A DNA stretch of 64,000 bases, from NCBI RefSeq assembly GCF_947305105.1, contig NZ_CAMZCS010000008.1, forward strand, positions 1 to 64,000, in the 5' to 3' direction. Below are positions 9,324-63,231 of this stretch, piece by piece (positions within the stretch are counted from its first letter, which is position 1; each line of letters opens with the position of its first letter). The stretch comes from an uncultured Fibrobacter sp. (GTDB lineage: Bacteria; Fibrobacterota; Fibrobacteria; Fibrobacterales; Fibrobacteraceae). A program made the position numbers and the translations under genes. The notes beneath the pieces were generated by a model. The model made no database searches, had not been told where the DNA came from, and worked only from the letters and a program-made list of their open reading frames with translations.

Positions 9324-9453
9324 GCGGGAGGGGACCCAGCTCAGAGTGGACGCCAAGGCGTCCGTGGCTACGTTCGGTCATATCGGCAAGCAAGCTTGCC
9401 GCTGCGACACTCACTTGCTCACTTTAGCGAAGGCCGCACGGTCCCCTCCCTGC
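9324..9453. repeat. Structured intergenic element with outer arms and two hairpins
   Basis: Most of the 339-bp gap upstream of the GT39-like gene. Outer arms GGGAGGGGACC (9326-9336) and GGTCCCCTCCC (9440-9450) are perfectly complementary. Inside are GACGCC-AA-GGCGTC (9349-9362) and GGCAAG-CAAG-CTTGCC (9385-9400). The segments around the hairpins (CGTGGC just after the first; GCTCACTTTAGC on the right) match those of the element at 17267-17362, although the second hairpins have unrelated sequence. The remaining gap bases (9454-9572) show nothing clear. Confidence 0.65.
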
Positions 9454-9572
9454 ACCCACCCCTTCCTTGGCCGACGCTTCTATTCTCAATACGTTTATTC
9501 ATACTCTAAATGTTTAAAAAATTTCTCGCTTTAAACATAAGGTATGCTAGATTATTTTTTGAATTTGGGGAT

Positions 9573-15982: not shown

Positions 15983-16544
15983 TTAAATCGCTCCAACGGC
16001 TTCTTTCAGAATCTCCAAAGCACTTCTGCACACCTCAGAAAAAGTTCTTCCTGCTGCAAAGACATATATCAAACATTGACCAAAATAGCTGAAGGACCGG
16101 CTTAGGCGTAATCGCATCACCGACAGTCACATCAACATAAAAGGGGACCGTCATCGGAGCAAACGAAGCCATCATATACGCTCGCAATCCGGGATAGGAA
16201 TCCTTTTCACGAATATCTTCTATTCGGTCAAGTAAAAATGTAAAACCATCCTGCAAGTCTTCCGAACAAATAGACAGCAAAGCCTCTTTTAGCGTTGACG
16301 GATCGACGCTGAACCCAGTAGCCGTCGCATCAATATCCATCGTCGTTCTTTTTGCAACGCCAACAAGCGAGGATGTCAAGAAGCCACCTTTCAGGATGAA
16401 GTTTGTGCGATAGTCGGACTTTGCTAGTCGGCACAGGAATCGTTCCAAGACATATTTTTGCAAAACACCCTGAGCCGTTACGCCAGATTCACAAGCAATT
16501 TTCTTTATGGCGGCTTTTAGTTTAGCGGCATTAGAAAAACTCAC
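15983..16544 (-). pseudogene. Truncated AbiEii-like nucleotidyltransferase toxin
   Basis: The frame from the GTG at 16544 gives 169 residues (stop at 16035). It contains FILKGGFLTSSL and KRTTMDIDAT, the nucleotidyltransferase core of AbiEii/AbiGii toxins with the DxD acids intact. Family members run to about 250-300 residues, and the C-terminal helical half is missing here. In the next frame an open tail (AAGRTFSEVCRSALEIL...) continues to a stop at 15983, so a frameshift or deletion join near 16045 is likely. It starts inside the stop of the antitoxin gene (GTGA overlap), as in intact AbiE operons. The toxin is probably inactive. Confidence 0.7.
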
Positions 16545-17266: not shown

Positions 17267-17362
17267 GACGCTTATGGCGTCCGTGGCATCGGCTCAGAAA
17301 TAAAATCAAGTAACTTGATTTTGCTTCATTCGCCTCGCACACTTTTGCTGCGGACAGGCGTA
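17267..17362. repeat. Structured intergenic element, second copy with a different hairpin core
   Basis: Occupies the middle of the 374-bp gap before wzt. It starts with GACGC-TTATG-GCGTC followed by CGTGGCATCGG, then has the hairpin AAAATCAAG-TAA-CTTGATTTT (17302-17322), then TTCATTCGCCTCGCACACTTTTGC. Order, spacing and flanks match the 9324-9453 element, while the second hairpin is A+T-rich here and G+C-rich there. Outer arms are not evident. Confidence 0.65.
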
Positions 17363-17544
17363 AAACCGCAGTAGTTTGAAAATTTGAACACTAGAACATT
17401 TGTTCACTATCAAATATAGTTTCGGGAATCATTATTGTCAATAGGTTTCCGATTTTTTTCACCGGGCCTCGGATGCCGCAATTTCGCGCATTTTTTTTGA
17501 ATCGGCTTCTCGGCTGTCCCTTATAATCTATATTACTCAATAGA

Positions 17545-40663: not shown

Positions 40664-40695
40664 GCAGTTCACAACAGAGACATTGCAAAAACAAA

Positions 40696-40732
40696 CGGGC
40701 CGGGTCAAATGAACCGGTCCGCATTTTTTTTT
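40696..40732 (+). terminator. Pilin terminator, founder copy of a repeated hairpin
   Basis: CGGGCCGG / CCGGTCCG stem (one G-T pair), 10-nt loop, then nine T on the plus strand. The same hairpin recurs at 41495-41530, 41918-41944 and 42994-43017, where the last two copies have lost the T-run. Confidence 0.75.
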
Positions 40733-40758
40733 GAACATTCCCAAATTAACTATAGAAA

Positions 40759-41374
40759 TCAAGGTTGCTTTGCAGCCATTGCGGCAAGCCGCGCCTGCAC
40801 CTCGGCAATCTGCTCCGCAGGGAAGTTCATGTCTTTCATGACGCTGATAGCATCGGAATGCCCCTCAGTTTTGCCTTTCTTCATGAAGTGCTCGCCGAAG
40901 GTTTCGTAACCCTTGTTCGCAATAGCCTCGGGACTGTCCATCTTGATTACCTCACTCTTATAGGGCCACTTCCAGAAAAAATACGAAAGCGACTGTTTGA
41001 TGAAATCCCTCCCTTCGTCGGTATTCTGCATCTTGAGCAGGTGCGCCGACGCCTCGCGAAAGGAAACCGAGAACTTCTCGATATCAAAAATATACTTCAT
41101 CGCGGTAAGCGCGACAAGGGTCATTGGCGAAAAGTCCTTCAGTTCGGAGTCGTCGACAGCATGGCCCACGTCCAAGAACTCCACCTTAAACGGATAGCCG
41201 ATATCGCGATAATATTCGGGATATTCCATGAAGCGTCCCTTTGCAAGTGGATTCCAGCCCATTTCACCATTCAAAACGAAAGTAACGGTCGTGAATAAAA
41301 TCGCTTTCAGAATCCTTGACGGAATCTACGATGGTGTTGAATTCGTGGACAATATCGTTCACCTTTTCATCCAT
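40759..41374 (-). pseudogene. Frameshifted gene with an Rpn-type C-terminal tail
   Basis: An ATG at 41374, preceded by AGAGGA, opens MDEKVNDIVHEFNTIVDSVK... and stops after 36 residues at about 41265. In another frame the protein continues as NGEMGWNPLAKGRFMEYPEY and runs ~170 residues to 40759, with SPMTLVALTAMKYIFDIEKF, SYFFWKWPYKSEVI and the end KDMNFPAEQIAEVQARLAAM. That end is identical to the 41557-41820 fragment. One frameshift near 41275 splits it. The family of the body is not recognised; the tail is of the Rpn/YhgA-like type. Confidence 0.6.
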
Positions 41375-41390
41375 ATTTTTATTCCTCTTT

Positions 41391-41520
41391 CACGGGAACG
41401 CGCCCGCTGCGCAAACGGAATTTGCTTCCGCCTGTACTATAAGACGTTCTAAATGACGATTTTATCCTCAAAAAAATTTTCACAAAACAGCAAACGGGCC
41501 GGGTCAAATGAACCGGTCCG
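41391..41520. repeat. 130-bp repeat R1 (promoter plus hairpin), Rpn array
   Basis: First of three near-identical copies: CACGGGAACGCGCCCGCTGC at one end, CTATAAGACGTTCTAAATGA in the middle, and the CGGGCCGG hairpin at the other. It lies upstream of the 41374 start. This copy is followed by a T-run and the same 65 bp as the pilin terminator. Confidence 0.8.
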
Positions 41521-41556
41521 CATTTTTTTTGAACATTCCCAAATTAACTATAGAAA

Positions 41557-41821
41557 TCAAGGTTGCTTTGCAGCCATTGCGGCAAGCCGCGCCTGAACCT
41601 CGGCAATCTGCTCCGCGGGGAAGTTCATGTCTTTCATGACGCCTAGGACATTGGCTTCGCCTTCGGCGAGTCCTTCGGCACGAGAACGTTTCTTCTCGAC
41701 GTACATTTCATAGTTTCGGTCGCTCATGTTCTTCGCCTCGCTTATAAGGAAGTCCTCTGTAAAAATACTCAATTTCGCACATTCGTGCAAGTGGGCAAAC
41801 ATCGAGCCTTCCGGCACGGGA
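41557..41821 (-). pseudogene. C-terminal fragment of an Rpn family nuclease gene
   Basis: About 88 codons remain: PVPEGSMFAHLHECAKLSIF, TEDFLISEAKNMSDRNYEMY, VEKKRSRAEG, then the tail KDMNFPAEQIAEVQARLAAM. All but the tail matches the C-terminal third of the intact gene at 41963-42877. The upstream end fuses directly to repeat R2 at CACGGG, so the start and nuclease domain were deleted. Confidence 0.75.
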
Positions 41822-41944
41822 ATGCGCCCGCTGCGCAGTCGGAATTTGCTTCCGCCTGTACTATAAGACGTTCTAAATGACGATTTTATCCTCAAAAAAA
41901 TTTTCACAAAACAGCAAACGGGCCGGGTCAAATGAACCGGTCCG
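41815..41944. repeat. 130-bp repeat R2, Rpn array
   Basis: Second copy, about 96% identical to R1 by eye. It shares the six bases CACGGG with the truncated Rpn fragment, marking the deletion junction. The hairpin is kept; the T-run is absent. Confidence 0.8.
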
Positions 41945-41962
41945 TTGTCGCTATAGATACCA

Positions 41963-42877
41963 CTATTTAATTGCCGCCACCCCAGCGATAATTTCTTCGG
42001 AAACACCCATTGAACGGAGGAAGTCCATCCGCTTGGCAGCCCGGTCATCGGCTCTCTTTTCGGCTTCGGCACGTCCTTCGGCACGGGAACGTTTCTTCTC
42101 GACGTATAATTCGTAGTTTCGGTCGCTCATGTTCTTTGCCTCGCTTATAAGGAAGTCCTCTGTAAAAATACTCAATTTCGCACATTTGTGCAAGTGGGCA
42201 AACATCGAGCCTTCCGGCACGGGGAGTGGTTGTTCTTTGTTCAGCCCGTCAATTACACGAAGCCATTGCGCCAGCATGCTGTTGTCGGAATGATATTTTC
42301 CATTCAAAAACTTGGGAATCTCGACAAGCGTGATGGTCTGCTTCTTGTAAAATTCCTCGTTTTCTTGATTTTTCAGACGCACATGATGCCGATAGTTGCT
42401 CGATTCGGGAAACCCGCTGAACATCTGGAGGCTCACGAGATTCAAGTTACGGAGTTTGTAATCGTCACCTTTGATACGACTCGCCACCGTATGCTTCGCG
42501 GTATAGAACACAAGGCGGTCACTATAAGTTCCATCGTCTACATGTTGCACCTCAAGGACGATGCGGTCCATGCCCTGATCCATCGCCACGATGTCCGAGA
42601 TAATCTCCTTACTGAACACGCCGGGTACGGCAGGATTCACGAAGGCGAGACGCTCTATACAATCGCTACCGCAGAGGTTGAGTACCGCATTCAGGAAGTC
42701 TACGGTCATCCTCTCGTTCTCAGGGTTGCCGAAAATCAATTTGAAGATGGAGTCGTTGTAGATGTAGACGAACTTATACTTCTCTCGATACCTTGCAATA
42801 CAGGCGGAGACATCGCCACCGGCCTTGTGAGTCTCATTGATGTCAACAAGCATTGCCGCATACTCTTTTTTTGTCAT
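41963..42877 (-). CDS. Rpn family recombination-promoting nuclease / putative transposase
   Basis: 304 residues. NDSIFKLIFGNPENERMTVDFLNAVL, FSKEIISDIVAMDQGMDRIVLEVQHVDDGTYSDRLVFYTAKH carries the PD-(D/E)xK acids (D...EVQ) of Rpn/YhgA-like proteins. In E. coli RpnA is a calcium-stimulated DNA endonuclease that raises RecA-independent recombination. The C-terminus is basic (VEKKRSRAEGRAEAEKRADDRAAKRM). Start ATG follows AGGACTCCACA. It is the only intact member of a three-copy array, flanked by R2 and R3. Confidence 0.87.
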   Translation of the reverse strand: MTKKEYAAMLVDINETHKAGGDVSACIARYREKYKFVYIYNDSIFKLIFGNPENERMTVDFLNAVLNLCGSDCIERLAFVNPAVPGVFSKEIISDIVAMDQGMDRIVLEVQHVDDGTYSDRLVFYTAKHTVASRIKGDDYKLRNLNLVSLQMFSGFPESSNYRHHVRLKNQENEEFYKKQTITLVEIPKFLNGKYHSDNSMLAQWLRVIDGLNKEQPLPVPEGSMFAHLHKCAKLSIFTEDFLISEAKNMSDRNYELYVEKKRSRAEGRAEAEKRADDRAAKRMDFLRSMGVSEEIIAGVAAIK

Positions 42878-42892
42878 TGTGGAGTCCTATTT

Positions 42893-43017
42893 GCGGGAAC
42901 GCGCCCGCTGCGCAAACGGAACTTGCTTCCGCCTGTACTATAAGACGTTCTAAATGACGATTTTATCCTCAAAAAAATTTTCACAAAACAGCAAACGGGC
43001 CGGGCAAAACCGGTCCG
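42893..43017. repeat. 130-bp repeat R3, upstream of the intact Rpn gene
   Basis: Third copy with a shortened loop in the hairpin (four bases fewer). Being 16 bp before the start codon it presumably carries the promoter of the Rpn gene. Confidence 0.8.
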
Positions 43018-43101
43018 TTGTCATTATGCAACCTGTTAGGGGGATTGTGCATCCAAATCTGCAAAAACCACGATATTTCTTTTTATCTTTGATTTTGCCT
43101 T

Positions 43102-59860: not shown

Positions 59861-59934
59861 TAATTAGAGTCTAGTGTTTAGGATCTAGGATCTAGAATCT
59901 AGAGGCTAGGGGCTATTGGCTAGTTTTAATTATG
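59861..59934. repeat. CTAG-rich intergenic repeat, copy 2
   Basis: TTAGAGTCTAGTGTTTAGGATCTAGGATCTAGAATC and onwards: seven CTAG cores in 60 bp between rpsA and cmk. Same units as at 4897 and 63151. It lies inside a likely operon, so a passive terminator role is doubtful. Confidence 0.6.
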
Positions 59935-60639: not shown

Positions 60640-60727
60640 GAGTGGGGACAAATTTAGCAAAAGGCGAGCGCCGCGTCAAAGCGATTTTTCGCTTTGGCAT
60701 GGCCGAGCCGAGCTAAAATGGCCCGTT

Positions 60728-63150: not shown

Positions 63151-63231
63151 GATATTAGAGATTAGAGGCTAGAGATTAGAGGCTAGAGCGACCTTATCCT
63201 CCCTAGTCTCCAGATCCTAGATTCTAGCCCC
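63151..63231. repeat. CTAG-rich intergenic repeat, copy 3, inverted halves
   Basis: GATTAGAGGCTAGAGATTAG on the left and CCTAGTCTCCAGATCCTAG on the right of a central GCGACC; the halves are roughly complementary, so the copy may form a long hairpin between convergent genes. Confidence 0.55.

Follow-up and report, generated by a model that had tools for sequence, protein, structure and literature searches.

A family of palindromic elements with covarying arms and conserved unpaired bases in Fibrobacter, probably a non-autonomous DNA insertion element with a promoter-like subtype

The window, which is the whole stretch of 64,000 nucleotides analysed from an uncultured Fibrobacter sp., contained two elements, at 9324-9453 and 17267-17362, in each of which a hairpin GACGC..GCGTC was followed by CGTGGC. 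Read on the minus strand, the elements contained GCTAAAGTGAGCAAG (9324) and GCAAAAGTGTGCGAG (17267). The second hairpin was formed by CGGCAAGC/GCTTGCCG in the 9324 element and by AAAATCAAG/CTTGATTTT in the 17267 element, and GGCGTCCGTGGC had exact matches at both of these sites and nowhere else in the window. The original prediction, that both elements share the GACGC hairpin, CGTGGC and a minus-strand AAAGTG segment and that the second hairpin differs in sequence yet remains paired, was borne out on each of these points. Both elements folded more stably than their shuffles (z -4.46 for the 9324 element and z -3.00 for the 17267 element), and BLAST with the 9324 element gave matches in 61 of the 61 genus genomes searched, with E values as low as 1e-61 in genomes other than its own. 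A third copy of the core family described below was located at 60722-60649 on the minus strand. The features were as follows.

9324-9347, plus strand: left part of the outer repeat (host repeat), joined directly to 9427-9453 at more than 10 other sites
9348-9426, plus strand: core insert of 79 bp, S1 subtype, absent at the near-identical orthologous site G031:C156 (L274)
9348-9363, plus strand: hairpin A, GGACGCC-AA-GGCGTCC, from sequence and fold
9374-9381, plus strand: conserved 5' strand TCG-GTC-AT, from near-invariant alignment columns and pair counts
9382-9403, plus strand: variable hairpin P3 (ATCGGCAAGC..GCTTGCCGCT), the interchangeable arm, from covarying pairs
9404-9412, plus strand: conserved 3' strand GC-GAC-ACTC, from near-invariant alignment columns
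9427-9477, plus strand: right part of the outer repeat (GCGAAGGCCGCACGGTCCCCTCCCTGC..CCTTGGCCGACGC), the same repeat being present at many loci
17267-17346, plus strand: second core copy, ~80 bp, bounded by homology to other S1 copies
60649-60722, minus strand: third core copy, S5 (promoter-like) subtype, from a covariance model match and orthologous-site comparison
60677-60680, minus strand: TTTG at the -33 position, end of the P3 arm, 20 nt before TAAATTTG
60649-60656, minus strand: TAAATTTG, resembling a -7 box (TAnnTTTG, Bacteroides consensus from PMC7366714)
59971-60639, minus strand: cmk, (d)CMP kinase (TIGR00017, 220.9 bits against a cut-off of 135.55)

The 9324-9453 element was composite, with an outer palindromic repeat (9324-9347 and 9427-9477) surrounding the 79-bp core (9348-9426), and it was the core that was related to the unit at 17267-17346. 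The ends of the element (query 1-24 and 104-130) belonged to a separate repeat, which occurred core-free at more than 10 other sites in the same genome. The conserved flanks that had been proposed could be kept for the CGTGGC and AAAGTG segments, which lie inside the core, and had to be given up for the ends of 9324-9453. Within 9374-9381, the TCG was unpaired, the GTC paired and the AT unpaired. In the second copy, P3 was the AAAATCAAG/CTTGATTTT pair and P2 was GAA/TTC, a compensatory change from GTC/GAC. The start codon of cmk followed 9 nt past the -7-like box of the third copy.

Several other sequences were noted around these features. The outer repeat was itself an abundant palindromic family (GCGGGAGGGGACC..GGTCCCCTCCCTGC), with an extension to GGCCGACGC. 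The sequence GAACATTTGTTC at 17394-17405, which resembles a LexA box of the Gram-positive type, adjoined the second element and lay upstream of an AbiEii-like toxin gene (16035-16544, PF08843). Quasi-tandem arrays such as TAGAGGCTAG were found at 59865-59923 and 63156-63186; arrays of this kind surrounded many core copies, with CTACTTCCTACTGTCTACTT at other loci. Long direct repeats (130 nt x3, 165 nt x2, and 120 nt x2) occupied 40687-43031.

An alignment of 26 copies revealed a common plan, in which hairpin A (GACGCC..GGCGTC in the first copy) was followed by a longer hairpin P1-P2-P3. The longer hairpin consisted of P1, an internal loop with TCG opposite RCTC, the three pairs of P2, a loop with AT opposite GC, and the variable P3. 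A covariance model matched this genome at 39 places, of which 38 had E < 1e-3, and gave 22-52 copies in each of four relatives. Copies of the three window elements had all gone into training the model, so that independent support comes from the rest of the genome and from the other genomes. The search for further copies in Fibrobacter genomes that had been suggested thus returned many. In a sample of the phylum, where copies were counted up to a ceiling of ~41 per genome, 49 of 49 genus genomes contained the core, as did 10 of 17 further genomes of the family; none of the 55 genomes outside the family did. The named matches in a pattern scan of genome contigs were largely Fibrobacter succinogenes and other Fibrobacter assemblies, and those in GC-rich genera (Corynebacterium, Azospirillum, and others) were taken for chance or coding sequence. 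Nothing specific on Fibrobacter repeats was found in the literature. A second mini-element of ~50 bp (TCCTC..GAGGATAACTCAACT[hairpin]AAGTTTCGTAT) was also seen in the hairpin loops of core copies (L071, L072, L050, L273, and L045:1802-1924); its arms were variable too, and it may share the plan of the core.

In 118 copies, 88% of the pair cells were paired, and both sides had changed in 601 cells compared with 190 in shuffles, so that the hairpin covariation, whose absence would have spoken against the original prediction, was very strong. The stems covaried around conserved unpaired bases, and the pairing was almost strictly Watson-Crick. Mismatches of the G·T and A·C types numbered 13 and 17 in P1a+P2+P3 and 44 and 45 in P1b. 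Since the two types were equally rare, the pairing is maintained in DNA rather than in RNA; an RNA under selection would be expected to accept G·U on the strand that encodes it, and the parity counts against this. The pairing is thus that of a double-stranded palindrome or of a folded DNA strand.

An interpretation of the copies as structured regulatory RNAs, either leaders or small RNAs with variable stems and conserved internal loops, would account for the covariation, for the loops, for folding energies lower than in shuffles, and for the position of the S5 subtype before genes. It is nevertheless very improbable, because G·U was not preferred to A·C on either strand, the orientation to genes was mixed, with no consistent direction across all copies, and the S5 copies were located upstream of a -7-like box, hence ahead of the expected start of the transcript. 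No Rfam family matched anywhere in the window at the gathering threshold. An RNA family was rejected on the Rfam searches (gathering threshold for the window, loose threshold for two of the elements) and then on the G·U/A·C comparison. What stood of the suggested selection for structure was the retained pairing, as a palindrome at the DNA level; G·U was not in excess of A·C, and the pairing gives no evidence of an RNA. Covariation alone is also no proof of selection on the stems, because template switching during replication yields compensatory changes of several bases (PMC8794818). The conserved unpaired bases are a better sign of recognition than the covariation, since correction of one arm from the other would erase them.

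Comparison of orthologous sites revealed that the core was present in some genomes and absent from others, a difference that may reflect either gain or loss. At the counterpart of the 9324 site in G031, the flanks were 98-100% identical and the outer repeat was present, the core was absent, and CAGAGT-T-GCGAAGG ran uninterrupted (G031:C156, L274). At the C25 site, the nearly identical strains G000 and G013 differed in the module that the outer repeat contained and in its position there, with a 72-bp relative in G000 and a core of the 9324 type in G013; module A on contig C25 of G000 was inserted in CCTTGGCC of the right part of the outer repeat. The CobA-HemD gene contained an in-frame copy of 78 bp, equal to 26 codons, that was missing in G031, and further copies lay within long ORFs of L153 and L133. 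Other repeat-derived peptides (CHCEPCKGDAISRG and SLSLSKGTEF) seemingly occurred in the CobA-HemD ORF as well (L098, G000:C44:14746-14819 and surroundings). The copy before pheS was absent in G008. The cmk copy (60649-60722) was missing at the orthologous site in G031 (L286) and G048 (L283) and present in G008 (L280). In the gpmI promoters, an S1 copy was placed cleanly inside an S5 copy (L395 compared with L387). The lengths of the clean inserts were 79, 78, and ~72 bp. The proposal of a mobile element is supported by this clean presence and absence, and copies differing only in the core between strains were found, including at the 9324 site itself. Some of these differences could also have arisen by gene conversion among copies of the repeats.

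As an explanation of the family, palindromes arisen by chance or ordinary hairpins between genes, for instance terminators, are hardly credible. Many copies were indeed intergenic and some lay between convergent genes, as terminators would, but the unpaired sequence was conserved, the model matches were restricted to the family, and copies were present or absent at orthologous sites and in frame within a gene. This candidate was ruled out by the covariation, the presence and absence at orthologous sites, and the family-restricted matches. From the sequence comparisons, the core is probably a non-autonomous palindromic DNA insertion element of ~75-80 bp that occurs across Fibrobacter and in part of the family.

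No clear target duplication was found in any of the filled and empty pairs compared; a duplication had been suspected at L053/L054, which the clean pairs did not bear out. Instead of a duplication, the sequence to the left of the insert resembled the right end of the insert itself at hemD, pheS, and gpmI, as in the look-alike junctions GTCATG / GTCATT at hemD and GTTTTG / CACTTTTG at gpmI. The left flanks of 43 S5 copies matched CTAAATTTG at a mean of 6.84 of 9 positions, compared with 5.43 in shuffled flanks (maximum 5.79). At 9324, in the outer repeat, and at module A of C25, the left flank resembled the 3' end of the element weakly. A bias between replication strands, as a sign of insertion on the lagging strand, gave no signal (12 compared with 10).

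The S5 subtype, represented by the 60649 copy, ended in TAAATTTG. In 80 genomes, the S5 pattern gave 61 matches compared with 0 for the reversed pattern, where the -7 box was present by construction because the pattern required CTAAATTTG, and the gene position and the -33 spacing were not. The S5 sites lay just before a start codon, within ~70 nt, in 57 of the 58 that were fetched, with a few distances at contig ends judged by eye. From a reading of the translations, S5 copies preceded ~21 different housekeeping genes, although many of the sites were orthologous between genomes and therefore not independent insertions. These genes included metG, valS, pheS, thrS, cmk, prfA, gpmI, a DEAD-box helicase gene, grpE, maeB, ribE, argH, lysA, miaB, dgt, and others, and four of them were aminoacyl-tRNA synthetase genes. 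When seven were compared with NCBIfam, the best match agreed in 7 of 7; cmk, which was whole, passed the curated cut-off, and the other six, which were N-terminal pieces, did not.

Of 51 distinct S5 regions, 42 had a TTG at a distance of exactly 20 nt ahead of TAAATTTG, with TTG at no neighbouring spacing, and TTTG occupied that place in 32 of the 51; in non-S5 copies, TTG was found at a comparable place in 6 of 88. Upstream of genes, TAnnTTTG occurred 18 times in the sense and 4 times in the antisense direction, compared with 7.5 in shuffled sequence. The Bacteroides promoter consensus is TTTG at -33 and TAnnTTTG at -7 (PMC7366714). The S5 spacing fits a Bacteroides-type sigma A promoter, with a consensus taken from Bacteroides and not from Fibrobacter. 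The regulatory role in the original prediction is supported by sequence only, and for the S5 subtype, which is promoter-like and to which neither of the two elements at 9324 and 17267 belongs.

A search for a mobilising enzyme revealed no Y1 transposase in G000, where PF01797 was absent. RAYT (NF047646) passed its cut-off in one control genome and in none of the 61 genus genomes. Y1 genes were present in 20 of the 61 genus genomes; a search of 12 Y1 loci with the core model gave one match near one locus and no core at the ends of the loci, and the Y1 loci whose flanks were read carried other, unrelated hairpins. As resident mobilisers, RAYT and Y1 were thus either not found or not linked to the core. 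Mobilisation in trans, as in REP elements, by an IS200/IS605-type Y1 (HUH) transposase that is absent here and present elsewhere in the population is unlikely. The AT/GC mismatch in the middle of the stem does resemble the AA/GC mismatch of E. coli REP that TnpAREP needs (PMC8266576), the look-alike target without duplication matches the logic of single-strand insertion, and Y1 genes do occur in part of the genus genomes; but the Y1 loci searched were without the core at their ends, RAYT was below the cut-off in 61 of 61 genomes, copies were abundant in genomes without any Y1 match, and a fixed GTAG tag was not found.

Spread without any transposase is a serious rival, possible though short of probable. 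Here, replication template switching or microhomology-mediated gene conversion would copy elements flanked by look-alike direct repeats, and the same process would correct the arms, so that perfect stems would need no selection on structure because one arm is corrected from the other. This would agree with the outcome of the transposase search and with the look-alike repeats that flank S5 elements, and the cores at 9324 and C25, which are polymorphic, sit within repeats that could serve as homology arms. Template switching also predicts near-strict Watson-Crick covariation, often of several bases at once (PMC8794818). Against such copying, the TCG/RCTC and AT/GC positions stayed unpaired and conserved, where arm-to-arm correction alone would pair them; the hemD, pheS, and cmk copies had little flanking homology; and the conserved sequence and spacing imply recognition.

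The attC sites of integrons, which the core resembles, are recombined as a folded strand and have variable paired arms with a few conserved unpaired bases. An attC site was rejected, as the R-box pair RYYYAAC / GTTRRRY was found in 1 of 118 copies, and no gene-cassette arrays were seen. In IS200/IS605 elements, an internal sequence has a guide role. The core resembles their ends in a hairpin with unpaired bases and in an internal stretch that is complementary both to the target and to one end of the element itself. It may also resemble them in inserting on the 3' side of a short target with no duplication; no duplication was seen in the clean pairs, and the look-alike was clear at hemD, pheS, and gpmI and weak at 9324 and C25. 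It differs in encoding no protein, and the ends found at those Y1 genes of the genus whose flanks were read are unrelated to it.

REP and REPIN elements, which are mobilised by RAYT (PMC8266576, PMC2817692, PMC3116915), are likewise repeated extragenic palindromes with a mismatch in the middle of the stem, AA/GC in E. coli REP, which requires it (PMC8266576), and AT/GC in the core. REPs are 20-40 nt and the core is ~75-80 nt, and the core has a promoter-like subtype and lacks a RAYT over the cut-off in the genus sample. With both strands counted, 55 of 118 copies contained a GTAG somewhere, in no conserved column and at no fixed position. Rickettsia palindromic elements (RPEs), some of which are CGTC REPs (PMC3733652; review PMC10969869), are short palindromic repeats, both intergenic and in frame in genes, for which no dedicated transposase is known; the CobA-HemD copy likewise lies in frame inside a protein-coding gene, and no transposase flanked by the repeat was found for the core. 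The core differs from RPEs in its two-hairpin plan, conserved unpaired bases, and covarying arms, in its distribution in Fibrobacter and relatives, and in the one subtype that forms promoter-like sequences. CGTC REPs are defined by a CGTC tag (or TGTC/CCTC), a stem of 8-9 bp starting with AT, and a CCA-like tail (PMC3733652), and a CGTC-type tag with a simple stem was absent from the core alignment. The core works like the palindromic elements of the REP/RPE kind, and it departs from REPs in tag, size, and transposase and from CGTC REPs in tag and stem.

The most likely mechanism, drawn from the analogy of IS200/IS605 and REP elements, is insertion of a folded strand 3' of a look-alike sequence. 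The element would enter in the form of a single DNA strand that has folded, where a replication fork passes or a promoter is open, and directly on the 3' side of a short stretch resembling its own 3' end. The internal inverted arm, complementary both to the target and to this 3' end, would act as the guide, and the conserved unpaired bases would be recognised by some enzyme or replication process. Because its 3' end is a copy of the target motif, the element would tend to restore, on insertion, the motif on which it landed. S5 would land after a -7 box and end in a -7 box, with its P3 arm supplying a -33 box at exactly 20 nt, and S1 would land after TTTTG and end in TTTTG. Such regeneration would account for the survival of housekeeping promoters that the elements enter. 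In its full form, the model is tentative: the copies may be genus-wide hairpin modules whose target is set by base pairing of the internal arm and whose 3' end regenerates the motif, so that they would insert harmlessly at promoter boxes and turn into promoters of housekeeping genes, four aminoacyl-tRNA synthetase genes among them, and which are moved by an undescribed hairpin-recognising enzyme or by replication.

How palindromic repeats such as CGTC REPs and RPEs spread without a transposase is an open question (PMC3733652). It now becomes testable in the core family, where near-identical strains have filled and empty sites and a candidate target rule is available, together with nested insertions and an in-frame genic copy. 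Strong covariation is usually read as proof of RNA structure, and here the DNA level offers the better explanation. If the S5 copies are active promoters, small palindromic elements would have come to drive many core genes of a bacterium that is important for breaking down cellulose in the rumen.
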